Shown piece by piece: positions 18,867-48,190 of a stretch of 64,000 bases of DNA. The position numbers were made by a program, and so were the translations under genes. The DNA comes from a virus. Each line of letters starts with the position of its first letter. Positions within the stretch are counted from its first letter, which is position 1. The notes under the pieces were generated by a model. It saw nothing but the letters and a program-made list of their open reading frames with translations, had not been told where the DNA came from and ran no database searches. The DNA is taken from the IMG/VR virus record IMGVR_UViG_3300036766_000876, positions 1-64,000 of that record. One strand, written 5' to 3'.

Positions 18867-18894
18867 CCTTGCCCGGGCCCGCCCGCTTTTTCCC
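18867..18894 (-). repeat. dispersed bipartite element, copy 6
   Basis: GGGAAAAA-N11-CGGGCAAGG on the minus strand (one mismatch), starting at the terminase stop codon and ending before the gene at 18858. Confidence 0.65.
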
Positions 18895-21602
18895 TACCGG
18901 CTGAGGACGTCCATCCGGCCAGCCTCGACGCGCATGGAGCCGAGGCGGTGCCCCTCGCGGGCGAACCAGCTCGCCATGAGGGAGTCCCCGGTATGCGCTG
19001 CGGGCGCGTAGTAGAGCATCTCCTGGATCCACGTCGCGATTTCTGGATGGGCCGGCATCCCGCCTCGGGAGGGGATGATCCACTTCCGGCCGGCGAGCTC
19101 CGTCGCCATCGACTCGATGCCGAACTCCGGGTGCGCCTTGTTCCGCCCCGTGGTGAACGGCCTGATGGGGACGGCGAAAGCGCCCCTGGCGAACTGGACG
19201 ATGAAGTCCTGAGCGTTGTGAACGACGAAGTCCTCCACCGTGTAGCTCTCGTCCTCCTCGACGGTGAGGTTGAAGACGGCCCCTCCCTTGTTGTCGAGGA
19301 ACGGCGCCTCCTCCATGTCTGGCACCTTGCTCCAACCGTGGAGCCTCTCCAGTACGATGGTGCCGTTTGACTTGCGCCTCGTCTTGGCGGCATCGCTCTC
19401 GAACCAGCGCTTCCAACGTTCCGCCTCCGTCGGCGTTGTCATCCTCTTCCGCAAAGCGCTTGAGCCCTCGTGCGTGAGGGTGAGCAGGTTGAGCGGGCGC
19501 CGCGTCACGACTCGCCCCTCGATGCTGTCTGTCTTCCGGTCGCTGGCGCTGAGCGCCATCGGGATGCCGGCCTGCCCCAGCGTGCTCCGGACGAACATCA
19601 TCCAGTCCCTGGAGATGCTGCACCCAGACAGGAACCACTGCGGCCACTTCGTCGAGGCGTTGTTGGGGCGCGCGCAACCGTCCCCCATCAGCCAGCCGCG
19701 CACCAGCGCGAGGCGGAGCCTCAGTGGCCAGCCCATCCACTTGAGGGGCAGGCACTTCTTGGCGCCCGTCCCGATCCGGAGCGCGTTCGCGAGCTGCGTC
19801 GAGGAGACGACGACGCGCAGCGTGCCCCTGTCCGTTGGGCGCAGCGTCACCTTCCCCCTCACGAGCTTCCACACCTCTCGCTCCACGAGGGCCGCGAGGT
19901 ACGTCTCCTTCTTGCCGAACGTCCAGTACACCTGGCCGCGCGTGGCGTGCCCCTCCGCCATGAAGAGCCCCAGCACGAGGGCGAGGTCCTCCGTGACGGG
20001 CACCGTCTTCGCGGCGTCCCTGAGCGTCTCCGGCAGGTGGAACTGTGCCTTCAGGGCAGGCCAGCGGGGCAGCGCCACCGCCGCGTACGCCGGCTCATCG
20101 CGCACCCCGTAGGACACCCACTGCGCCGCCCCGACTGGCCGGTGGTGGCCCGTCGAGGAGCGCCCGGCCTTGCGGAGCCAGAACCAATGGTTGGGCGTCG
20201 TGACGACTGGCAAGCAACCCTTCGCCTGCGCCCTCACCGTCGTCTGGGCGGTGCCCTCATGCGTCCCGGTGACGGGGCGCCAGCGCCCCTTGTGCGTCCA
20301 GACGAGGTCCCCGAGCTGGACCTGCTCGATGGGCTTGTAGCCCTCGCTGGTGAGCACGCGAGTCCCTGGGGCGAAGCAGGCGTTGTTCTCCACCACGACG
20401 ATGGAGAGGAACCGGCGGTGGTGGTCGATGATGCGGGAGACAATCTCCGGCCCGCTCCACTTCCCCCGCTCGATGTTCAGCACCTCCCTGTCGTTGGTGT
20501 TGGGATGGACGGCGATGGTGAAGAGCACCGTCGAGTCGGAGCCATCCTTCTGCTGCACGGCGAGGTCCACTCCCGTGTACGTCTTGAAGCCCGGGGGGAG
20601 CTTGTCCATCCCGTAGCAGAGCTGCTTGCCCTCGCCACGCGCCAGGCAGACGTCGATCCACTCCTTCTTGAAGCGGGCCTCGTCGTCGGAGCGCGCCACG
20701 CAGAGGAGCTGTCGGGCGAACTCCAGTGGCCCCAGCGTCTCCCGGACGCGGGCGATGCGCTCTGGGGGCCAGCGCTCCGCCCACCTCGGAGTGCCGTCCT
20801 CCAGGAGCACCGGGTAGCGCATCGCCTTGAAGCCCGGCATGCGAGCCAGCCGGTGGAGGGCGTCGTCGGGGTGGAAGGCCGTGCCCACGACGAGGACGCG
20901 CCCCTTTGACGTGAGGCGGGAGAGGCAAGCCGCCTGGAGCCACGCGAAGCAGTCCTCCCTCCCCTGCGCGCTGCGGGTGTTCTCCACGTCGAGGAGGTCA
21001 TCCACGATGAGGAGGTCGAGCCGGGAGCCGAGGATGTTTCCGTGGACGCCGATGCCCTGGATGGAAGGGTCCTTCGAGATGCTCTGACGCTTCACCGTGA
21101 TGGCGCTCGTCGTCCACTGGTCCGAGCTGGGGCGGAGGTCCGGGAACACCGCGTGGAGCTCCGGGCTCGACTCGATGTACCGCTTGATGGAGCGGAGCAC
21201 CTTCTGGCTCTGCCCCGCCGTGTTGGAGACGATGCCGATGCGCAGACCCTTGTCCCGCCCGAGCTCGAAGAGCGTGCGGGCGATGCTGAGCTGGCTCGTC
21301 TTCCCGGACTCGATGGAGCTCCAGAGCATCAGCCTGTCGTTCTCGCTCGCCAGCTTGTGCCAGGCCCGGTGGACCTCCGCCTGCTCCAAGGGAAGGCCAG
21401 TCCGCTCGTCTCGCATGACGGTAGTGACGAAGCAGTTGATGTCCTCACGGGCGGCCTCCAGGAGGTTCTGCGTCAGGTAGGCGTCGGACTCGGCATCGAG
21501 CGGCACCTCCACGGCCAAGTCCAGGGCAGCAGGCTGCCCCGCCGGCCAAGCACTGAGGGTGGGGCCGCCGAAGAGGCTGGTTGGCGTTGGGGCGTTTGCC
21601 AT
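18894..21602 (-). CDS. terminase large subunit, interrupted by an intein
   Basis: 902 residues encoded, of which 388 are an intein, leaving a 514-residue terminase. ATPase: Walker A SSIESGKTSQ (residues 95-104), Walker B LDLLIVDD (195-202), coupling motif VVGTAFHPDD (238-247). Nuclease: first acidic residue in YTGVDLA (Asp346), second in VVVE (Glu405), and a C-terminal acidic region around YYAPAAHTGDSLMA. The enzyme cuts concatemers and drives DNA into the head at the portal. The intein sits four residues after Glu405, in the most conserved part of the nuclease centre. The putative small subunit is immediately upstream. Confidence 0.9.
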   Translation of the reverse strand: MANAPTPTSLFGGPTLSAWPAGQPAALDLAVEVPLDAESDAYLTQNLLEAAREDINCFVTTVMRDERTGLPLEQAEVHRAWHKLASENDRLMLWSSIESGKTSQLSIARTLFELGRDKGLRIGIVSNTAGQSQKVLRSIKRYIESSPELHAVFPDLRPSSDQWTTSAITVKRQSISKDPSIQGIGVHGNILGSRLDLLIVDDLLDVENTRSAQGREDCFAWLQAACLSRLTSKGRVLVVGTAFHPDDALHRLARMPGFKAMRYPVLLEDGTPRWAERWPPERIARVRETLGPLEFARQLLCVARSDDEARFKKEWIDVCLARGEGKQLCYGMDKLPPGFKTYTGVDLAVQQKDGSDSTVLFTIAVHPNTNDREVLNIERGKWSGPEIVSRIIDHHRRFLSIVVVENNACFAPGTRVLTSEGYKPIEQVQLGDLVWTHKGRWRPVTGTHEGTAQTTVRAQAKGCLPVVTTPNHWFWLRKAGRSSTGHHRPVGAAQWVSYGVRDEPAYAAVALPRWPALKAQFHLPETLRDAAKTVPVTEDLALVLGLFMAEGHATRGQVYWTFGKKETYLAALVEREVWKLVRGKVTLRPTDRGTLRVVVSSTQLANALRIGTGAKKCLPLKWMGWPLRLRLALVRGWLMGDGCARPNNASTKWPQWFLSGCSISRDWMMFVRSTLGQAGIPMALSASDRKTDSIEGRVVTRRPLNLLTLTHEGSSALRKRMTTPTEAERWKRWFESDAAKTRRKSNGTIVLERLHGWSKVPDMEEAPFLDNKGGAVFNLTVEEDESYTVEDFVVHNAQDFIVQFARGAFAVPIRPFTTGRNKAHPEFGIESMATELAGRKWIIPSRGGMPAHPEIATWIQEMLYYAPAAHTGDSLMASWFAREGHRLGSMRVEAGRMDVLSR
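19215..20378 (-). mobile_element. intein with LAGLIDADG-type endonuclease in terminase
   Basis: Residues 409-796 of the terminase frame. Block A starts with Cys409 (CFAPGTRVLTSEG), block B has the TxxH form (VVTTPNHWFW), and the end reads FNLTVEEDESYTVEDFVVHN, with the usual penultimate His and terminal Asn796. Two dodecapeptide-like motifs, LVLGLFMAEGH (543-552) and LVRGWLMGDGC (633-643), keep an acidic residue each, so the homing endonuclease looks intact. The next residue after Asn796 is Ala797, not Cys, Ser or Thr as canonical splicing needs. Joined exteins would read VENNA-AQDF. Confidence 0.85.
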
Positions 21603-25208: not shown

Positions 25209-25942
25209 CAGAAGGCCCCCTGGTTGGCCGCATGGGAGAAGTGCCGAGGCCTGTCGCGGAACTCTCGCCAGGAGTGCTCCCCAAGGAGCCTGTTGGCCGC
25301 GTCCTGGGCGAGCACCTCCCTGGCGAGCGCCAACACCACCGGGCAGAAGCGGTACGGGGTGCGCTCCGCCCCCTCGCAGACGGGGATGTGAGGCCACCCC
25401 ACCATCGCCTTCCAGAGCCCGTCGTGGTCGAGCCCGAGGAGGTCCTGCGCCTGCCCCTGGCTGAGCGTCTCTCCCTTGGGCTCCGCCCGCATCTGGAAGC
25501 GGATGCTCTCGAAGCCTGTTGTGTAATTCCTGGACCGCATGTGAAGGAGCTCGGAGCCTTCCCACAGCGGGAGCGGTGCCTCCTTCGAGCAGCGGGCGCA
25601 GAGCCACTTCCCACCGAGCTTGATGGTCGGCTTCCCACGGCAGCGCCGGTAGTCCCGCGGGCGGGCCTTGAGGAAGGCGAGCAGCGGGCCGGTACCCCGA
25701 GCCCTCGGCTTGACGGGGTAGAGCTGCCGGTTGGCGCACTTGGGGAACGGCTCAAAGGCGAGCTCGAAGCGTTCGTCGGTGGCCGGCCAGCCGTTGTAGA
25801 CGCTGTACGCCGGGAAGAGCCGCTCACCCTTGAACTCGCGCGCCTTCGACTCCTCGGGCAGGGCCGCCTGGATGGCGGTGGCAAGCCCGTCACGCCAGGC
25901 CTTCACCATCGCACGCTTGCGGTACCCGCGGAGCCACGTCAT
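25208..25942 (-). CDS. hypothetical protein with zinc-ribbon-like cysteines
   Basis: 244 residues, ATGA-coupled. Cysteines at about 69, 101, 115 and 118 (FPKCAN ... RRCRGK ... WLCARCSK) may bind zinc. Near the end, LAREVLAQDAANRLLGE carries the shared box, followed by a basic tail. A larger relative of the small-gene group; function unknown. Confidence 0.5.
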   Translation of the reverse strand: MTWLRGYRKRAMVKAWRDGLATAIQAALPEESKAREFKGERLFPAYSVYNGWPATDERFELAFEPFPKCANRQLYPVKPRARGTGPLLAFLKARPRDYRRCRGKPTIKLGGKWLCARCSKEAPLPLWEGSELLHMRSRNYTTGFESIRFQMRAEPKGETLSQGQAQDLLGLDHDGLWKAMVGWPHIPVCEGAERTPYRFCPVVLALAREVLAQDAANRLLGEHSWREFRDRPRHFSHAANQGAF

Positions 25943-26415
25943 CGCTTCCACCAGAGGAAGACGGAGCCGAACTCGGGCTGGCCCTGCTTCTTCGCCAGGA
26001 GGTCCCCGGGCTTCCCGTACTGGAGGCGTGCCGGGAGGAAGCGAACATGCAGTGGGGAGCCAGGCCTGTCGCGGAACGGCTCGACGTGCTCGTGCCACCA
26101 GGCGAGGTCCGTCCGCGTCGCGGGGAGGAGCATCCCGATGACCTTCACCACGCGGCGCCTGCGCCTCCACTCACTCCAGGCCTTCTTCACCCAGGGGCCC
26201 ACGTTGCTCCAGGGAGGGTTGCACCAGACGCGCCCCCACCAGGAATGGAGGAGCCCGTTGTCGGCCTTGGTGAGGTACTTCGGGGCGAGGTGCGCCTCCA
26301 GGCAGGCCGCCACGTCGAGGTCCCACGCCTTCACGCCGGCAGCGGCGTTGCAGAGCAGCTTGACGTGCTCCAGCGTGTAGCGCTCGTCGGTGTCGAGGTC
26401 CGCGATGCCCACCAC
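25939..26415 (-). CDS. Dam-like DNA N6-adenine methyltransferase
   Basis: About 158 residues from GTG 26415 (start uncertain; the frame is open to 26553, but the first 28 residues of that longer form only shadow the neighbouring gene). DERYTLEHVKLLCNAAAGVK, then LDVAACLEAHLAPKY and WWGRVWCNPPWSN, which has the N-P-P-W form of the catalytic DPPY-type motif, match the phage Dam family. It would methylate adenine in a short site, probably for protection. No matching endonuclease lies nearby. It lies next to the hypermodification operon, consistent with an anti-restriction block. Confidence 0.75.
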   Translation of the reverse strand: MVGIADLDTDERYTLEHVKLLCNAAAGVKAWDLDVAACLEAHLAPKYLTKADNGLLHSWWGRVWCNPPWSNVGPWVKKAWSEWRRRRRVVKVIGMLLPATRTDLAWWHEHVEPFRDRPGSPLHVRFLPARLQYGKPGDLLAKKQGQPEFGSVFLWWKR

Positions 26416-26711: not shown

Positions 26712-26739
26712 CCTTGCCCCGGCCGGCCTACTTTTTCCC
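26712..26739 (-). repeat. dispersed bipartite element, copy 7 (exact)
   Basis: GGGAAAAA-N11-GGGGCAAGG on the minus strand. It overlaps the last codons of the kinase gene (GKK and stop) and lies 10 bases before the GTG at 26701. Confidence 0.7.
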
Positions 26740-27276
26740 GAGGAGCCTGACCTCCAACACCTCAAGCAGCGACTCGGGCGGTAGCACGGCCACCAATTCC
26801 AGCCTGTCCTCCTCCGGGAAGCCATCGAAGAAATTACGCGCCTTGGTGACGCGCCCTTTCACCCACGTTGGGTTCTGGAGCTCCGTCCCGGCGACTGCCG
26901 CGCGCTCCGCTCGACGCTTCTCCCCGAGGCCTGGAGGGAGCGAGACGAGGGCGCACACCTGGCGGACTCCGGTGTTGCCAAAGAAGGTGCGTGCAGTGCT
27001 GTTGCTGAAGCGGTCCCCATCGAGCACCGTCAGCAGAGCCTTCTGGTAGAGCACCTCCCGCCAGAAGCCCAGCGCCACGTCCACGCCGTTGTAGGGCACG
27101 GTGTCCGCACCATCGAACGCCGCGCCTGTGTAGTGCCCGGCAGCGACCACTCGGGGACCGATGGTCCACTTCGGCTTCGCCTGGAGGCGCACTTCCGCGT
27201 CGAGGAGCCCGCGGGCCAGCGTCGTCTTGCCTGAGCCGGGCTCCCCCACCAGCCAGAGGACAGTCCCCCGGTTCAC
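26728..27276 (-). CDS. P-loop kinase, candidate 5-hydroxymethyl-dU DNA kinase
   Basis: 182 residues from a coupled GTG. Walker A is LVGEPGSGKTT (residues 9-19); a later LTVLDGDRFSNSTARTFFGNTG (about 82-103) would hold the second acidic site and a substrate loop. There is no thymidylate- or nucleotide-kinase lid of the usual kind. In phages with hypermodified thymine, a stand-alone P-loop kinase phosphorylates the hydroxymethyl group of 5-hmdU in DNA so it can be displaced. Here it is the last gene of a six-gene coupled operon with a TET/JBP dioxygenase and an amino-acid transferase candidate. Kinase fold certain; DNA substrate inferred from neighbours. Confidence 0.75.
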   Translation of the reverse strand: MNRGTVLWLVGEPGSGKTTLARGLLDAEVRLQAKPKWTIGPRVVAAGHYTGAAFDGADTVPYNGVDVALGFWREVLYQKALLTVLDGDRFSNSTARTFFGNTGVRQVCALVSLPPGLGEKRRAERAAVAGTELQNPTWVKGRVTKARNFFDGFPEEDRLELVAVLPPESLLEVLEVRLLGKK

Positions 27277-28124
27277 GCGAACCCCAACAAGTGCAGCGCC
27301 TGCTCTGCTGCCCAGAAGCTCATCAAGCCCCCAATGCGGCCGCCCCCCGTGGCGACCACCAGCGAGTCCGCGACGGCAGTCACCGTCGGGCCCTTGTCCA
27401 CCAGCGGGCGCCAGCCATGGTAGCGCCGCACCTCTTGGCGCTCCCCGAGGTACGGAGCGACGCGCGCCAGCATCTTCTGGATGTACTCCTCGGAGTGCCC
27501 CTCGCGCTTCTCCTGCGTGGCGCAGACGCGAATCATCCCCGGGTTCCACTCCCGGACGGCAATCTGGTTGTACGGGGTGACTTCATGGAGGAGCACCTCC
27601 TTGTGCGGGGGCTCACCCGCGAGAATCACCCCAGACCCAGCCAGCCGCTTGACGCCAATCGTTGGTAGGCCGCTGGCCGAGAGCAGCTCGTCGGTCCACG
27701 CGCCAGCGGCCACGACCACCCCGCGGGCTTGCCAACGCTCACCCGTCACCTGCACGAAGCCGGAGCCGACACGCTCCACCTCTGCTTCCGCGTCTGGAGG
27801 GCGGAGCGCGAGGAACCCAGCCGGGCTGAACGTGTACCAGTCCTGTCGGTAGCGGGACTTGGTGCGGTCCTTCATCCCATGGACACGCGCACCCGAGTTG
27901 TAGAGCGCAACGCCACAGCTCTCCGCCTGTGCGCGGGCCCGCTGGAGCCGGCCCTTCCACTCACCGCTGTACCAGCCATCCGCGAAGTACCCACTGGCAG
28001 CGGGGCTCGCTGCCTCCGCGCGAGCACCGTCCACCAGCAGGACAGAGTGCCCCGCGCGCTCCGCCATCAGCGCCGTCGCGACGCCCCAGTACCCAGCGCC
28101 CACCACGATGAGGTCCGCGTCCAC
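27273..28124 (-). CDS. FAD-dependent oxidoreductase/lyase, DAO (glycine-oxidase-like) family
   Basis: 283 residues. N-terminal Rossmann motif LIVVGAGYWGVATAL with the acidic end LLVDG (residues 5-32), VVVAAGAWTDELL in the middle and a C-terminal VATGGGRIGGLMSF FAD-contact region, as in D-amino-acid/glycine oxidases. It is shorter than typical members (about 370). Flavin-dependent lyases are known to cut amino acids already attached to modified thymine in phages, leaving for example an aminomethyl group. The position between the acetyltransferase and kinase genes supports that role over free amino-acid oxidation. GTG start directly follows the upstream stop. Confidence 0.75.
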   Translation of the reverse strand: MDADLIVVGAGYWGVATALMAERAGHSVLLVDGARAEAASPAASGYFADGWYSGEWKGRLQRARAQAESCGVALYNSGARVHGMKDRTKSRYRQDWYTFSPAGFLALRPPDAEAEVERVGSGFVQVTGERWQARGVVVAAGAWTDELLSASGLPTIGVKRLAGSGVILAGEPPHKEVLLHEVTPYNQIAVREWNPGMIRVCATQEKREGHSEEYIQKMLARVAPYLGERQEVRRYHGWRPLVDKGPTVTAVADSLVVATGGGRIGGLMSFWAAEQALHLLGFA

Positions 28125-28535
28125 TCACAGCCTCCGGTAGATGTTGAAGAGCCGAGTCCCATCAGTACTCGTCTTCTGCCCGGCGAGCGAGAAGCCAAGG
28201 CGCTGGTAGAAGCTGTTGGACTCGGCGCTGTCGGCGTTCGTCTTCAGCTCCATTGGGTAGCCGATGGCTGCGAGCAGCTCCTTGCCGAGGCCCTGTCGCT
28301 TGGCTGCCGGGTCCACCGCCACCTCGTAGAGGACCTTCACGCCGTCGCGCTGCCTGGTGAGGTAGTGGGCGAAGGCGAGCTCGGGGATGCCGATCCACCG
28401 CGCGTTCTTCGGGAGCGGGTTCCATGCACGCCACCAGATGACGCCCGGGTCCGTCCCCAGGATGTGCTCGTAGTGCTTCCAGATGCGAATCACCCATGGC
28501 TTGTCGGCCAGGGTGAGGCCCACGACGCGGCTCAC
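28125..28535 (-). CDS. GNAT-family N-acetyltransferase
   Basis: 136 residues from a coupled GTG. The acetyl-CoA loop is VAVDPAAKRQGLGKELL (residues 72-88, Q/R-x-x-G-x-G form), and ESNSFYQRLGFSLAG is the typical motif B. GNAT enzymes acetylate amines. In thymine hypermodification, acetyltransferases cap the amine left by the flavin lyase, which fits the adjacent gene. Acetylation of a protein cannot be excluded from sequence alone. Confidence 0.8.
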   Translation of the reverse strand: MSRVVGLTLADKPWVIRIWKHYEHILGTDPGVIWWRAWNPLPKNARWIGIPELAFAHYLTRQRDGVKVLYEVAVDPAAKRQGLGKELLAAIGYPMELKTNADSAESNSFYQRLGFSLAGQKTSTDGTRLFNIYRRL

Positions 28536-29416
28536 ACCAGCACCTCGCCCGTCTTGAGGTAGTGCCCCTTGAGCTCCTTGCGCACGCCCATCCAGCCGCC
28601 GAACTCCCCCAGGTACTTGTGGTCGAACGAAGCGAGGCGCGCCTTCTTCAGAGCCTCGGAGCAGGGGGCCAGTGTCTCCCGCTGTTGGTCGAGGTCGTGC
28701 CCCATGTAGTACGAGCCCTTCGAGAGGGAGTTGAAGTCGCAGCAAGCCGTCTCCAGCATGTCGAGCCCGTTGAATGGCACCAGCCGGCGGACTGCCTCGT
28801 CGTGGACGGCCTGCTGGAGCTCGACATCGACCACGATTCGCTTCCAGCTCTCACCAGTGATGCGGACCATGCCCGGCACCGGGCCCGCCGTCTCACCGCC
28901 GCCTCCGACTCCAATGTCCGCCGCGGTGATGGGGTAGCCATGGACGTTCTTCAGGAGGTCGGCCCACTTGTAGCTACTCCAGTGGCCGCCGTACGGCACC
29001 TGTTGGAAGGCCCCGCGCACCTGCTGCCAGCCGGCCTTCCCGCCCGGCCCAACGGCCGCCTCCACCCAGTTGCTCAGCTTCCCACCGAAACGGGAGCGTA
29101 CGAGTGCGAGGAGGGTGTTCACATGGAGCGCTGCCAGGTTGTTCCCTCGGAAGCCTCTGCGCTCAGTACCGGTGGCGAGGCGCAGGTCGTTGGGGAGCTC
29201 CCTTGGAGAGGGATAGCGGGTCCACGCCAGCTCAGCGCTGCTCAGGTTGTACCAAGTCACGTACAGGAGGGTGCGCCACAGGGCCTGCTCCGTGGGGATG
29301 CCCTCGTCGGCGTAGAAGCGCTTGAGCACGGGGTACGTCGGGTCGAGGTCCCCGCTGACAATCTGAGCCGTGGCGAAGGTGCAGAACTTCGCGAACACCG
29401 GCTCCACCAGCTTCAT
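28532..29416 (-). CDS. candidate amino-acid:DNA transferase (aGPT-pyrophosphorylase-like)
   Basis: 294 residues, ATGA-coupled. All-helical N-terminus with LYVTWYNLSSAELAW and RRGFRGNNLAALHVN. A central GGHWSSYKWADLLKNVHG is followed by the glycine-rich IGVGGGGETAGPVPG, and the C-terminal ETACCDFNSLSKGSYYMGHD has the charged/aromatic pattern of the glycosylase-like aGPT-pyrophosphorylase families. These are predicted to swap the (pyro)phosphate on 5-hydroxymethyl-dU for an amine donor. The family assignment is by pattern and operon context and needs a profile search; the protein could instead be an unrecognised DNA-base modifying enzyme. Confidence 0.55.
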   Translation of the reverse strand: MKLVEPVFAKFCTFATAQIVSGDLDPTYPVLKRFYADEGIPTEQALWRTLLYVTWYNLSSAELAWTRYPSPRELPNDLRLATGTERRGFRGNNLAALHVNTLLALVRSRFGGKLSNWVEAAVGPGGKAGWQQVRGAFQQVPYGGHWSSYKWADLLKNVHGYPITAADIGVGGGGETAGPVPGMVRITGESWKRIVVDVELQQAVHDEAVRRLVPFNGLDMLETACCDFNSLSKGSYYMGHDLDQQRETLAPCSEALKKARLASFDHKYLGEFGGWMGVRKELKGHYLKTGEVLV

Positions 29417-30249
29417 GGAGCCGCCGGCCCGCGGCGCTTCTGCTCGCGGGAGGTCTTCACAGCGCGGATCCGCTCCAGCTCCTGGATGGGCGTGCCGCAG
29501 TGACACATCCCCTGGAGCGCGTAGTAGACGATGGTGTAGCGGTAGGCCCGCGGGGAGAGCTTCCTGAACGGGGTGACTCCATGAAGGAAGTGCTGCGCGT
29601 TGAAGATGCTCAACGTGCCGTCGCGTACCGCCAGAGCCACGTCGAGCTGGGGCACCGCCAGGTAGCCCCCCTCCAGGTCCTTCTTGAAGGTGAGCATCGC
29701 GTTCCAGGTGCCCGGGTAGTTCCCAGTGTCGAAGTGGTACCGGAGCAGGTTGTTCCAGTTGCAGATGCCGCTGGTGTAGCTGCTGTTGGGGAGAATCCAC
29801 TCCGGCTTCGTCTGCGCGCGGACGATGGCCTCTTGGTGGGCCGCCTGCTCCGGGAGGTAGTGCTTGAGGTAGCGCGTCGCCAGGGCAGCGCCTTCGCACA
29901 AGACGGAGTGCTCCGCTGGTGACTCATGGGCGAGCGCGGCTGTCGTGCAGAAGTCCCGCCGGATGGTGATGCGCGGCTGGTACCCGATGACCCTACTCGT
30001 CGTCTTCAAGCCCGCCGTCCTGGCGGTGGACTGGTACTCGATGGCCTGCACCGCGTTGCGGATGGCGGACGTCTCCTCTGTTGGTGGCACGATGTACAAG
30101 CCGGCCAACACGCCATCCACGTACAGCAGGGAGGACTCCTCCAGTAGCTGGGAGCAGTCCTCCGCCTTGGGGGCAACCTTGCGCAGGAGCTTCTTGGTGT
30201 CGAGCTCCCTGCTCTTGAGGTCCACCCTCGGCAGGACCGGGAACGTCAC
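29413..30249 (-). CDS. TET/JBP-family Fe(II)/2-oxoglutarate DNA dioxygenase
   Basis: 278 residues from a coupled GTG. The iron site reads His172-x-Asp174 (RYHFDTGNYPGTW) and His223 (FLHGVTP); Arg237 in RAYRYTIVYYAL is placed to bind 2-oxoglutarate. The double-stranded helix core (AMLTFKKDLEGGYLAVPQLD, GTLSIFNAQHFLHGV) matches TET/JBP rather than AlkB. TET enzymes oxidise 5-methylcytosine and JBP enzymes oxidise thymine in DNA. No cytosine-C5 methyltransferase is visible in the window and the operon partners are those of thymine hypermodification, so thymine to 5-hydroxymethyl-uracil is favoured. Confidence 0.8.
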   Translation of the reverse strand: MTFPVLPRVDLKSRELDTKKLLRKVAPKAEDCSQLLEESSLLYVDGVLAGLYIVPPTEETSAIRNAVQAIEYQSTARTAGLKTTSRVIGYQPRITIRRDFCTTAALAHESPAEHSVLCEGAALATRYLKHYLPEQAAHQEAIVRAQTKPEWILPNSSYTSGICNWNNLLRYHFDTGNYPGTWNAMLTFKKDLEGGYLAVPQLDVALAVRDGTLSIFNAQHFLHGVTPFRKLSPRAYRYTIVYYALQGMCHCGTPIQELERIRAVKTSREQKRRGPAAP

Positions 30250-30929
30250 GCCTTGCTCGGTTTCTCCCAGTGCTCCAGGAGCTTCTGGAAGACCTCGGTG
30301 TTGGAAGCGACGCCCATTGCCTTCTGGGCCGCCTCCAGCCGCGTGACGATGACGTCGTACTGTGGTGCCTCGAAGTACAGGACGATCTGCTTGATTTCCG
30401 CCGCCAAGAACTTGGGGAGGAGCTCGTCGGGCGAGGCACCAACGACCGGAGCCGTCGCGGCTGCGACCTCCCTGTCAAGGGCGTCGAGGTCCGTCTGCTG
30501 GAAGCCCGTGCCGAGGAGTGTGGATGTGTCCGAGAGGTCGCGCAGGATGTCGGCCAGCCCCGCCTCGTCCCACCCACCAATCTCCACCAGGCGGTTCGAG
30601 GTCAGCAAGTACGCCTCTGCCTCCGCCACGTCCTTGAAGGCGACGCCCCGCACCACAGGGACCATCCAGTCCTGGCCCTTCATGGCGATGCGCGCTGGTG
30701 GCGTCTTCCCTGCGGCCTTCCGTCGCTGGAGCGCCTCCAGCCGCCCGTGGCCGGCCACCAGCTTCCCGGACTTCTCATCCAGGATGAGAGGCTCTGTGAA
30801 GCCGAAGCGTTCAAGGCTCGCGTCGATTCCAGGCTCGTCGTGCTTCTTGGGGTTGCGCGGCCAGCGCTGAACCTCCGCCAGTGGGACGTACTCGACGCGG
30901 TAGCCCTTCTCTGCCTGCTTCTCGGTCAT
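30246..30929 (-). CDS. ParB-like domain protein of the modification operon
   Basis: 227 residues from the ATG at 30929, preceded by GGAGG (an upstream ATG at 30941 would add four residues). YVPLAEVQRWPRNPKKHDEPGIDASL, then FGFTEPLILDEKSGKLVAGHGRLEALQ, is the ParB/Srx nucleotide-binding fold. The middle AYLLTSNRLVEIGGWDEAGLADIL and the C-terminal KQIVLYFEAPQYDVIVTRLEAA resemble ParB-like proteins linked to DNA methyltransferases. Such proteins are recurrent partners of phage base-modification genes. It may guide or regulate modification. First gene of the six-gene operon. Confidence 0.8.
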   Translation of the reverse strand: MTEKQAEKGYRVEYVPLAEVQRWPRNPKKHDEPGIDASLERFGFTEPLILDEKSGKLVAGHGRLEALQRRKAAGKTPPARIAMKGQDWMVPVVRGVAFKDVAEAEAYLLTSNRLVEIGGWDEAGLADILRDLSDTSTLLGTGFQQTDLDALDREVAAATAPVVGASPDELLPKFLAAEIKQIVLYFEAPQYDVIVTRLEAAQKAMGVASNTEVFQKLLEHWEKPSKA

Positions 30930-30938
30930 CACGGCCTC

Positions 30939-30949
30939 CATGTGTCAAA
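30939..30949 (-). repeat. TTTGACACATG 11-mer, copy 2
   Basis: Identical to the copies at 6990 and 36018. Sits at the head of the hypermodification operon, just upstream of the ribosome binding site. Confidence 0.45.
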
Positions 30950-31275: not shown

Positions 31276-32892
31276 TCACGAGACTCTCCCCGCCTCCACC
31301 TTCCAGCGGAGCGCAGCGGGTGCCCTGGCAGCGAGGGACTCGTTGTGCGTGATGAGGACGACGGCCCTGTCCTTGGCGAGCTCCGCCAGGACATCCACAA
31401 CCGCCTCGATGCCATCGTCGTCGAGGGCGTCCATCACCTCGTCGAGGAAGAGCGTTCCCCGGCCGGCGAAGGCGAGGAGGAGGGCGAGGTCTATCCGCCG
31501 CCGCTCCCCACCGCTGCTTGCCTTGTAGCCCTCGCCACCGCCAGCCCCAAGGACGGTGATGCCGATGGCGTCAGAGAGGCCTCCGGCCTTCCTCTCGCTG
31601 TAGGGCTTGAGCTCAAGCCGCAGCCCCGGCCCGGCCAGCCGGGCCAACCACCCATTCGCGGCCGCCTCAAGCCCGGAGAGCAGCCGGGTGAGCATCCCTG
31701 CGCGCGCGCCACGCAGGCCAAGGGCAGCTTCAGCCGCAGTGAGTATCGTTGCCTCTCGGCGCAGCGAGGGCAGCTCCTGCTCAACCTCCTGCCGCAGTGC
31801 CTCCGCCTTTTGCTGCTCCGCAGCGGCCCTGGCGAGCGTGTCCTCCGCCGTCTTCCGGCTTCGCCCGGCCTGCTCCGCCGCCCCGGCCTCCCGGCTGGCC
31901 GCAGCTTCCCTCTCACGCAGACGGGAGAGCGTCTTCTCGTCGTCCGAGAGCTGCACCGCGAGGGCCTCCAATTCCCCGGCCTTCGCTTCCCTCGCGCCCT
32001 TGGCGGCCGCCTCTGCTGCCAAGGCGTCCTGCTCCAGCCGGGTGCGCGCAGCCACGTCTACCGGGAGGGTCTGTCCGCACTCGCCGCAGGTTGCCCCGGG
32101 CTTCGACAGCCGTCCAAGCCGGTGGCGGACGTTGACGGCCTCCTGTCGGTGGACAGACTCCGCTGAGGCGAGCTCCTGCTGCTCCTTGCGCAGGTCCTTG
32201 AGCGAGGCCTCGGTGGTGCGTACGGAATGTCTGAGGTTGGCCAGCACCGTCCCATGACCACCAAGCGGTGGCGCTGGTGGGAGTGCCGCCAGAGTGCGCT
32301 CAGCGTCCTCCCGCCGAGTACCGTGGAGCTCCGCCTCGCGCTGGAGCATTTGCGCGCGCCCGGTGGATGCGTCCAAGCGGGTCTGCACACCGCGAAGCTC
32401 CGCACGACAGCGTTCCAGCGCGGCGTCGAAGCGCCCGAGGCCCAGCCACGCCTCCAGGAAGAGCTTGCGCTCCTTGTCCGTCGCCATGGTGAAGTGCGCC
32501 GCGTCCGCGCTGCTGAAGACGTGGGTGCGCCGCCAGGACTCGAAGCCGCCAATGACGGCCTCCAGCGCGTCCTGGGCCTTCGTGGTTGTCGGGTACTCGG
32601 TGCCGCGCCCCTCTGGGTCCGTCCATGAGAGCTTGGCTGAGCCGCTCTTGCGGATCCGCTCCGCGGTGGCCGCATCCGTCTCCAGCCTCACGCAGCAGGG
32701 CTTCTTCCCATCCCCGCCTGGATGTGTCCCCCGGAGCGTCTCACCGAAGGCCCCCCAGGCAACCGCCTCTGGGATGCTGGACTTGCCGCCGCCGTTAGGC
32801 CCCGTGACGACAACAAGGCCGCGCTCCGGGAAGTCGAGCACCGTGTCCTCGTGCTTGGTGAAGCCATCCAGCTCGACGCGGCTCACGTTCAC
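31276..32892 (-). CDS. SbcC/Rad50-like (T4 gp46-like) recombination nuclease ATPase
   Basis: 538 residues, the size of T4 gp46 and half that of bacterial SbcC. Walker A GPNGGGKSS (31-39), coiled coil, zinc-hook CGEC (269-272), second coiled coil, ABC signature SSGGERRR (459-466), Walker B LFLDEVMDALDD (481-492). With the SbcD-like subunit it would trim DNA ends for recombination-dependent replication. Coupled to the thymidylate kinase gene upstream by GTGA. Confidence 0.9.
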   Translation of the reverse strand: MNVSRVELDGFTKHEDTVLDFPERGLVVVTGPNGGGKSSIPEAVAWGAFGETLRGTHPGGDGKKPCCVRLETDAATAERIRKSGSAKLSWTDPEGRGTEYPTTTKAQDALEAVIGGFESWRRTHVFSSADAAHFTMATDKERKLFLEAWLGLGRFDAALERCRAELRGVQTRLDASTGRAQMLQREAELHGTRREDAERTLAALPPAPPLGGHGTVLANLRHSVRTTEASLKDLRKEQQELASAESVHRQEAVNVRHRLGRLSKPGATCGECGQTLPVDVAARTRLEQDALAAEAAAKGAREAKAGELEALAVQLSDDEKTLSRLREREAAASREAGAAEQAGRSRKTAEDTLARAAAEQQKAEALRQEVEQELPSLRREATILTAAEAALGLRGARAGMLTRLLSGLEAAANGWLARLAGPGLRLELKPYSERKAGGLSDAIGITVLGAGGGEGYKASSGGERRRIDLALLLAFAGRGTLFLDEVMDALDDDGIEAVVDVLAELAKDRAVVLITHNESLAARAPAALRWKVEAGRVS

Positions 32893-33536
32893 GTCGTCCT
32901 CCGCTCCTTCCAGGCGGCCACGGCGGAGGCAATCTCGTGCGTCACTTCCTCCAAGCCCGTCTTGGACACGATGACCCACCTGTCCGGGGAGCCCTCGTGG
33001 GCCATCTGCTTCCAAAGCTCCCGGTAGTTGTTGGCCACCTGCCAAAGGTGTTCCGCGTTCCGCTCGTACCTGTCACGCGCCTCAGGCCGGCGCTTCGCCA
33101 GGAGCTCTGGAGTGCTGTCGAGGAGGATGAACAAGTCGGGCTGTGGCAGCCACCTGTGGAGCCCGATGAGGTACTCGCCGTCGAGCCCATCGGCCTTGCC
33201 ATAGGCGTAGCCGGAGGGCCAGTAGCGGTCCATCACCACGTTGCCAGCGGCGGCATCCTCGAAGAGCTGGCTCGCCACCTCCATCCTGTTGGCCACCTGG
33301 AGCGCCTGGAAGACGAGGGCGTCGATGTGCTTCTCGCGCGCAACGTCGATGCCCTTCTGCACGTCGTCCTCGCTGTGCGTGGACCACGTCCCTGCCAGGT
33401 GCTCGTAGATGAGCTTCCCCGTCGGGCTGTCCTTGTTGGGGAACTTCCACAGCTTCGCCCGGAGCCGGCCCGCCAGGATCGCGCACTGCGTCGTCTTGCC
33501 GGACCCGTCCAGCCCCTCGATGCAAACGATTGCCAT
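32889..33536 (-). CDS. tmk: thymidylate kinase
   Basis: 215 residues, normal length. Walker A CIEGLDGSGKTTQ (residues 5-17), the DR(Y/W) motif in VMDRYWPSGYAYG, and FILLDSTPELLAKRRPEARDRYERN as the LID region. It phosphorylates dTMP. In a phage that may hypermodify thymine, it probably secures dTTP supply, or could act on 5-hmdUMP if that nucleotide is made elsewhere in the genome. ATG follows a bipartite element. Confidence 0.88.
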   Translation of the reverse strand: MAIVCIEGLDGSGKTTQCAILAGRLRAKLWKFPNKDSPTGKLIYEHLAGTWSTHSEDDVQKGIDVAREKHIDALVFQALQVANRMEVASQLFEDAAAGNVVMDRYWPSGYAYGKADGLDGEYLIGLHRWLPQPDLFILLDSTPELLAKRRPEARDRYERNAEHLWQVANNYRELWKQMAHEGSPDRWVIVSKTGLEEVTHEIASAVAAWKERRTT

Positions 33537-47298: not shown

Positions 47299-47519
47299 GC
47301 CTGGCTGCCCATCATTCGGGCCGCCTCCGGGCTGGTCTGCTTCAGGTAGGCGACGACGCTCCGCCACTCAACCCAGTGGGCGGCACCGAGGCGCTCCCCA
47401 TGGACGGCACCAGCCTTAATCCAGTTGTAGATGGTCGGGAGGGTGAGCCCCAGGCGCGCGGCCACCTCCTTGGCGGGCACGTACCCCTTGGCGCGTAGCT
47501 TGTCCTTGATGTTGAGCAT
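47295..47519 (-). CDS. MerR/AlpA-like small HTH protein
   Basis: 74 residues. KGYVPAKEVAARLGLTLPTIYNWIKAGAVHGER is a classic excisionase/AlpA winged-helix N-terminus. Likely a small DNA-binding regulator in the sigma-factor/ParB-like cluster. Confidence 0.75.
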   Translation of the reverse strand: MLNIKDKLRAKGYVPAKEVAARLGLTLPTIYNWIKAGAVHGERLGAAHWVEWRSVVAYLKQTSPEAARMMGSQA

Positions 47520-48190
47520 CAGCTTGCCTCCTTGCGCTTCGTGTCTTCCCCGAGGAGCACCATCAGCCCCGCGGCCATGTCTCCGCCCTTGCCCGCCGCC
47601 CTGCGCAGGCCCTTCTTGGCGCGCAGGAAGTCCGCCCGCGCGGTGAACTCCAGCTCCAGGAGGAATGGCTTCGTTGGCGCGTCCTCCGCTTGGTAGTCCT
47701 CGGCGGAGGGCACGGCCATGTCCGGCGAGAGAGCGGCATCGACGTCCTGGCTGACCGCCCCCATCAGGTCCCTCACCTCGTCCTCGTTGAAGCCCGTCAC
47801 GGTGAGCTGCTCCGTGCTCCAGCCGGCCTCAGCGAGCTCCTTGAGGATGCTCCCCACCATCGTCAAGTCCGGCTCCCCGCGGAGGTTGTTCATCCCCACG
47901 CGGAGGGCCCGCTCCTCGTCCTCCGTCCCACTGGCCACGACGCAGGGCACCTCCCCCATGCCCAGCTTCCGCGCGGCCAGGAGGCGGTGGTGCCCGTCCA
48001 CCACGGAGAACAGAGTCTCCCCGTGGCGCTCCGCGCCCTTCAGCGGGCGCACCAGCAACGGCTGGAGGAAGCCGAACCGCTGGATGGCCAGGACGAGCAG
48101 GTCGAACTTCTCCGTGCTCATCTGGTTGGGGTTGTCCTGCGCCGGCTGGAGGAGCTCCACCCGGATGTTCCTGCTGACGACGTTGCTCAT
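47519..48190 (-). CDS. ParB-like domain protein
   Basis: 223 residues. VELLQPAQDNPNQMSTEKFDLLVLAI, then FGFLQPLLVRP and FSVVDGHHRLLAARKLGMGEVP are the ParB N-terminal boxes, with VGMNNLRGEPDLTMVGSILKEL after them. It lacks a recognisable ParB HTH. Same overall order as the protein at 30246 but otherwise divergent. It could bind CTP and act as a regulator. Coupled to the sigma-factor gene. Confidence 0.8.
   Translation of the reverse strand: MSNVVSRNIRVELLQPAQDNPNQMSTEKFDLLVLAIQRFGFLQPLLVRPLKGAERHGETLFSVVDGHHRLLAARKLGMGEVPCVVASGTEDEERALRVGMNNLRGEPDLTMVGSILKELAEAGWSTEQLTVTGFNEDEVRDLMGAVSQDVDAALSPDMAVPSAEDYQAEDAPTKPFLLELEFTARADFLRAKKGLRRAAGKGGDMAAGLMVLLGEDTKRKEAS

Follow-up and report, generated by a model that had tools for sequence, protein, structure and literature searches.

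A six-gene viral operon predicted to hypermodify thymine after replication, with a TET/JBP dioxygenase in place of a thymidylate synthase homologue

A 64,000-nucleotide stretch of viral DNA (the window; bases 1-64000 of the 94,299-base contig IMGVR_UViG_3300036766_000876, from a virus of bacteria) was analysed in this study, which revealed six intact, contiguous reading frames on the minus strand (26728-30941) that encode a ParB-like protein, a TET/JBP Fe(II)/2-oxoglutarate dioxygenase (TET), an amino acid:DNA transferase (ADDT, or aGPT-PPlase2), a GNAT acetyltransferase, a DAO-type flavoenzyme (DAO) and a P-loop kinase. These genes probably act together to hypermodify thymine after replication, with TET taking the place of the thymidylate synthase (TS) homologue that starts the pathway of Pseudomonas phage PaMx11, a reading to which we give a probability of roughly 0.7. 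The ParB-like protein would help to bring TET to DNA, where TET would convert thymine to 5-hydroxymethyldeoxyuridine (5-hydroxymethyl-dU, hmdU), as the interchange of TET and TS suggests. Judging from its position and co-occurrence, the kinase would turn the hydroxymethyl group into 5-phosphomethyl-dU; ADDT, by its homology and fold similarity to PUGT of PaMx11, would let glycine displace the phosphate to form N-alpha-glycinylthymidine; DAO, similarly related to NGTO, would cleave the glycine oxidatively to leave 5-aminomethyl-dU; and GNAT, given its homology and the same gene set in PaMx11, would acetylate the amine. From the observed genes, families, gene order and absence of TS, we infer all of these reactions and a final base that is probably N-acetylated 5-aminomethyl-dU, the purpose of which is likely protection from host restriction.

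Adjacent frames overlap by 4 nucleotides at the ParB/TET, TET/ADDT, ADDT/GNAT and DAO/kinase junctions and abut directly at the GNAT/DAO junction, with good coding scores for all six genes. The overlapping set of ParB, TET, ADDT and P-loop kinase genes by which ParB-TET-aGPT-PPlase2-kinase phage cassettes are recognized is present, and the arrangement is far beyond chance because the same six-gene order recurs in three diverged IMG/VR contigs (L035, L099 and L100; loci are numbered in this way throughout). A preliminary description of this DNA had proposed six coupled genes of these kinds, all of which proved intact and matched their families in Pfam or PHROG. That the operon is decayed and inactive, or that it modifies few sites in a regulatory rather than protective role with ParB setting the sites, appears very improbable. 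A regulatory role would agree with the nearly constant adjacency of ParB and TET and with the presence of a Dam-type methyltransferase in the same genome, whereas the reading frames and catalytic signatures are all intact and the gene order is kept across deep divergence.

TET (29413-30249, 278 amino acids, GTG start) matches Pfam Tet_JBP (PF12851, E = 1.7e-9) above the cut-off and retains the iron triad and distal arginine of the TET/JBP family (H172-x-D174, H223 and R237), which are invariant in 13 homologues. The ParB-like protein, encoded by the first gene of the operon (30246-30941, 231 amino acids, or 227 from an alternative ATG at 30929), matches the ParB-like family PHROG_620 (E = 1.3e-27) and has no Pfam match. 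ParB goes with TET, which is found in 47 of 48 ParB-bearing ADDT clusters. A second ParB-like protein, encoded at 47519-48190 on the minus strand, carries a Pfam ParB_N match.

The assignment of TET to thymine draws on its exchange with TS-family proteins. Among 57 ADDT clusters drawn from phages, IMG/VR and genomes, 50 contain TET, three contain TS in the fetched locus and none contains both (Fisher p = 0.0012); in a fourth TS case, L086, the gene lies elsewhere in the contig, and counting it as TS gives p = 8.9e-5. The corresponding numbers for 39 whole records are 31, five and none (Fisher p = 1e-4). Each of the four TS rows occupies a place of its own within TET clades when the transferases are arranged in a tree, with at least three of these placements forced by well-supported branches. 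The four TS-family proteins tested (one partial) fell far short of the ThyA equivalog cut-offs, which is what hydroxymethylases would be expected to do. HMUDK_hel, queried with gp50 of PaMx11, was found in no TET locus and, leaving aside L189, where no front end of either kind was seen, only in TS-type records. As the source of 5-hydroxymethyl-dU, TET seems to replace TS, and the simplest reading of these distributions is that two interchangeable front ends, TS with HMUDK_hel or ParB with TET, feed one back end; on that view, the product of TET acting on thymine in DNA should be 5-hydroxymethyl-dU, and we infer a JBP-like thymine hydroxylase in the window. A broader proposal, which we hold tentatively and at slightly less than even odds, is that TET has been swapped repeatedly and independently with TS-type hydroxymethylases on one conserved back end that phosphorylates, aminates, trims and caps, with a ParB-like clamp guiding the post-replicative conversion of thymine to N-acetyl-5-aminomethyl-dU.

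A search of the 94.3 kb contig for TS (PF00303), taken as far as E = 10, gave no match, and neither ThyX nor dUTPase was found there; a nucleotide-level origin of hmdU was rejected on these grounds. The earlier suggestion that the hydroxyl is added in finished DNA gains support from the lack of a nucleotide-level hmdU route in the contig and from the mutual exclusion of TET and TS. The contig also contains a dTMP kinase-like gene (32889-33536, minus strand).

TET could instead oxidize 5-methylcytosine (5mC), with the transferase branch building a hypermodified cytosine. Its nearest PDB relatives by profile search, CMD1 and TET2, are both 5mC enzymes, the host could provide 5mC, and PMC12730594 attributes to Burke 2021 the report that phage TETs located beside C5-cytosine methyltransferases act on 5mC. 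However, no C5-cytosine methyltransferase was found in the contig, most of the 39 ADDT-TET-related records lack one, and none was found in 49 TET-only records, many of them short, whose TETs belong to the nearest relatives. Moreover, the TS-family proteins with which TET alternates work at the uracil/thymine level, and the solved transferase and lyase homologues use thymidine derivatives. We regard oxidation of 5mC as quite unlikely, and thymine as the probable substrate.

ADDT (28532-29416, 294 amino acids) matches Pfam ADDT (PF18724, E = 4.8e-9), and its profile matched PDB entries 25qc (E = 2.5e-14) and 8z2m, a glycinyltransferase (E = 2.7e-9). Foldseek comparison of its AlphaFold model (predicted local distance difference test score, pLDDT, 95.5) with the PDB retrieved PaMx11 gp46/PUGT, the 5-phosphomethyl-dU glycinyltransferase (E = 1e-6; template modelling score, TM, 0.61-0.63), and nothing except PUGT below E 0.001. 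Family membership is indicated by both the Pfam match and the fold, which bears out the aGPT-PPlase-like transferase candidate named earlier. Identity to PUGT over the fold alignment is only 20-22%.

DAO (27273-28124, 283 amino acids, GTG start) matches Pfam DAO (E = 1.7e-25) and has an intact GAGxxG dinucleotide motif. Searched against the PDB as a single sequence, it gave the entry "Flavin-dependent lyase" (8z2o/8z79) as its best match (E = 1.1e-6). A profile built from the window protein and IMG/VR cassette proteins only, without PaMx11 rows, matched the same flavin lyase with E = 1.6e-23, followed by the glycine oxidase family with E = 1.4e-11. A scan for relatives with the single window protein gave none, and profiles were needed. 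The three best PDB fold matches of the AlphaFold model (pLDDT 84) are all gp47/NGTO, the N-alpha-glycinylthymidine FAD lyase of a Pseudomonas phage (TM 0.81-0.83). Over its full length, DAO is nearest to the NGTO-type lyase among flavoenzymes of known structure, and on this homology and modelled fold it is predicted to cleave N-alpha-glycinylthymidine in DNA.

GNAT (28125-28535, 136 amino acids, GTG start), the candidate for N-acetylation of the aminomethyl group, matches Pfam Acetyltransf_7 (E = 1.1e-8) with an intact CoA motif RQGLGK, and in a tblastn search of 50,697 phage records it matched acetyltransferases of Abidjanvirus phages, including PaMx11 gp48. The kinase (26728-27276, 182 amino acids, GTG start), the putative 5-hydroxymethyl-dU DNA kinase, has an intact Walker A motif (GEPGSGKT), and Ploopntkinase3 (PF18751, E = 2.7e-8) is its only Pfam match above the curated cut-off. 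Its profile retrieved only generic P-loop NTPases from the PDB. A kinase homologue is present in 54 of the 57 ADDT clusters. Membership of the HMUDK family was rejected, given PF18751 instead, no HMUDK_HMUD1 match at E up to 1, and no HMUDK_hel found in the contig; the window kinase may nevertheless work like HMUDK. The preliminary description had listed HMUDK among the families for comparison, and the kinase proved to belong to Ploopntkinase3 instead. It had also named matches of the flavoenzyme, kinase and transferase profiles to unrelated families as evidence that would speak against its proposal: for two of the three the outcome favoured the proposal, the flavoenzyme lying nearest to NGTO and the transferase nearest to PUGT.

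PaMx11, an Abidjanvirus, encodes in a row ADDT (gp46, PUGT), DAO (gp47, NGTO), GNAT (gp48, acetyltransferase), a kinase (gp49), HMUDK_hel (gp50) and a TS homologue (gp51). Four proteins of the window, the transferase, the flavoenzyme, GNAT and the kinase, each have a counterpart in this cluster; transferase, DAO and GNAT were searched independently and all match it, thus indicating one pathway. The closest known pathway is that of PaMx11 rather than those of ViI and M6, which the preliminary description had cited. Different from PaMx11, which starts with the TS homologue and carries HMUDK_hel, the window encodes ParB and TET and a kinase of the Ploopntkinase3 family. The PaMx11-type pathway is marked by the synthesis of hmdU as a nucleotide by a TS homologue, of which the contig showed no match, and from its gene content the operon is a TET-started variant rather than a member of that pathway.

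Several points weigh against the pathway proposed here or against its later steps. The Fisher tests ignore relatedness, TET-linked sequences served as seeds for the ADDT search, the records, including the window contig, may be incomplete, and host enzymes could contribute. The kinase stands outside the HMUDK Pfam family. The GNATs of other cassettes are just 19-41% identical to that of the window and could act on something else; GNAT occurs with a flavoenzyme in 11 of 12 clusters, an association that, given how common flavoenzymes are, does not reach significance, and a dependency of GNAT on DAO was dropped as a statistical argument. The amino acid is not fixed by homology, since all ADDTs share a fold, and the match to PUGT may just reflect how few members have solved structures. 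An alternative concerns the end of the route: the thymine pathway may be the same, with a donor other than glycine, or with a product other than acetyl-aminomethyl-dU if GNAT acts on a different group or at another step. Donors differ among the ADDTs of different phages, and the low identity to PUGT leaves room for another amino acid. The position of GNAT also varies, between ADDT and DAO in the window and ahead of ADDT in L022 and L032, and in related cassettes, genes for an amidoligase, a phosphatase or an amidotransferase are swapped in. Nevertheless, no other flavoenzyme of known structure comes as near to DAO as the glycinylthymidine lyase does, and ADDT, DAO, GNAT and kinase occur together in PaMx11, which makes such a variant unlikely, if less so than a 5mC route, and leaves glycine transfer followed by acetylation as the preferred reading.

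The novelty of the cassette had been overstated. ParB-TET-aGPT-PPlase2-(DAO)-kinase cassettes with 4-bp overlaps, which share the core of the window operon, are annotated in the isolated actinophages Tonitrus, Wooper, CaiB, Phelemich, MO526 and Kozie and are frequent in IMG/VR. They differ from the window in lacking GNAT, in encoding proteins about 24-36% identical to its own, and in lying just ahead of the terminase gene. Such operons were reportedly predicted earlier by Iyer and colleagues in 2013. TET cassettes in actinophages and the chemistry of PaMx11 are already known; as far as searched, what is new is that a TET start is joined to the complete glycine/lyase/acetyl branch, an arrangement seen in no isolated phage among the phage records searched, together with the comparative evidence for mutual replacement of TET and TS. 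Two papers describe the actinophage cassettes as possibly serving thymidine hypermodification or nucleotide modification (PMC11955845; PMC9302106), and no report of a modified base in cultured actinophages with ParB-TET-ADDT-kinase was found in the literature searched. If the pathway proposed here is true, the same complex DNA decoration would be able to begin, interchangeably, with hydroxylation at the nucleotide level or at the DNA level, a prediction would follow for every phage with ParB-TET-ADDT-kinase, cultured actinophages included, and a compact enzyme set might place an amine or acetyl-amine on thymines of ordinary DNA with nucleotide pools unaltered.

Two further known systems share features with the window. 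In kinetoplastid base J synthesis by JBP1/2, a TET/JBP enzyme hydroxylates thymine in DNA, as proposed here, and glucosylation comes next, whereas phosphorylation and amino acid transfer are proposed for the window. The TET-C5-methyltransferase-glycosyltransferase cytosine systems likewise use a phage TET/JBP enzyme on polymeric DNA (Burke 2021, as cited in PMC12730594); as they are described there, the window differs in having no C5-cytosine methyltransferase on its contig and in drawing its transferase and lyase from the thymidine branch.

Related environmental cassettes vary in composition and order. ParB-TET-ADDT-DAO-kinase is the commonest transferase-bearing order in IMG/VR (28 loci, including two phage records), and L049 and L042 have the order ParB-ADDT-GNAT-DAO-kinase-TET. 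Some TET-ADDT cassettes have an added amidoligase and/or low-molecular-weight phosphatase (L041:6927-8185, L074:7643-8218, L097:2253-3089), which suggests other end products. In many environmental cassettes the DAO slot is occupied by a diverged Rossmann/DAO-like family (L003:3054-3926, L002:3761-4642, L024:6858-7757) with a weak link to DAO (hhalign 90%); the same family supplies the closing "hypothetical protein" of the Wooper and Tonitrus cassettes. The closest relative of the window transferase is in L021 and that of the window TET in L030, with the TET of L021 in a different deep clade, so cassette parts are exchanged. ParB-TET loci without ADDT (L101, L120 and others) include a TET-associated glycosyltransferase (PF20691) in two of the four read; as the 49 TET-only records of this kind contain no C5-cytosine methyltransferase, these loci may be base-J-like thymine systems. 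In L004, L008 and L181, ParB-TET-kinase cassettes in which no transferase was found in the fetched locus, the pathway possibly ends at phosphomethyl-dU.

Comparison of the DNA polymerase and terminase of the contig for host assignment gave no close phage. Starting at about residue 409, the terminase large subunit (18894-21602, minus strand) has a Hint/intein-like domain that resembles stretches in unrelated phage proteins. Downstream of the operon, at a distance of a few hundred bases and with a gene of 78 amino acids in between, lies a Dam-family N6-adenine methyltransferase gene (25939-26412, minus strand), which possibly represents a second DNA modification.

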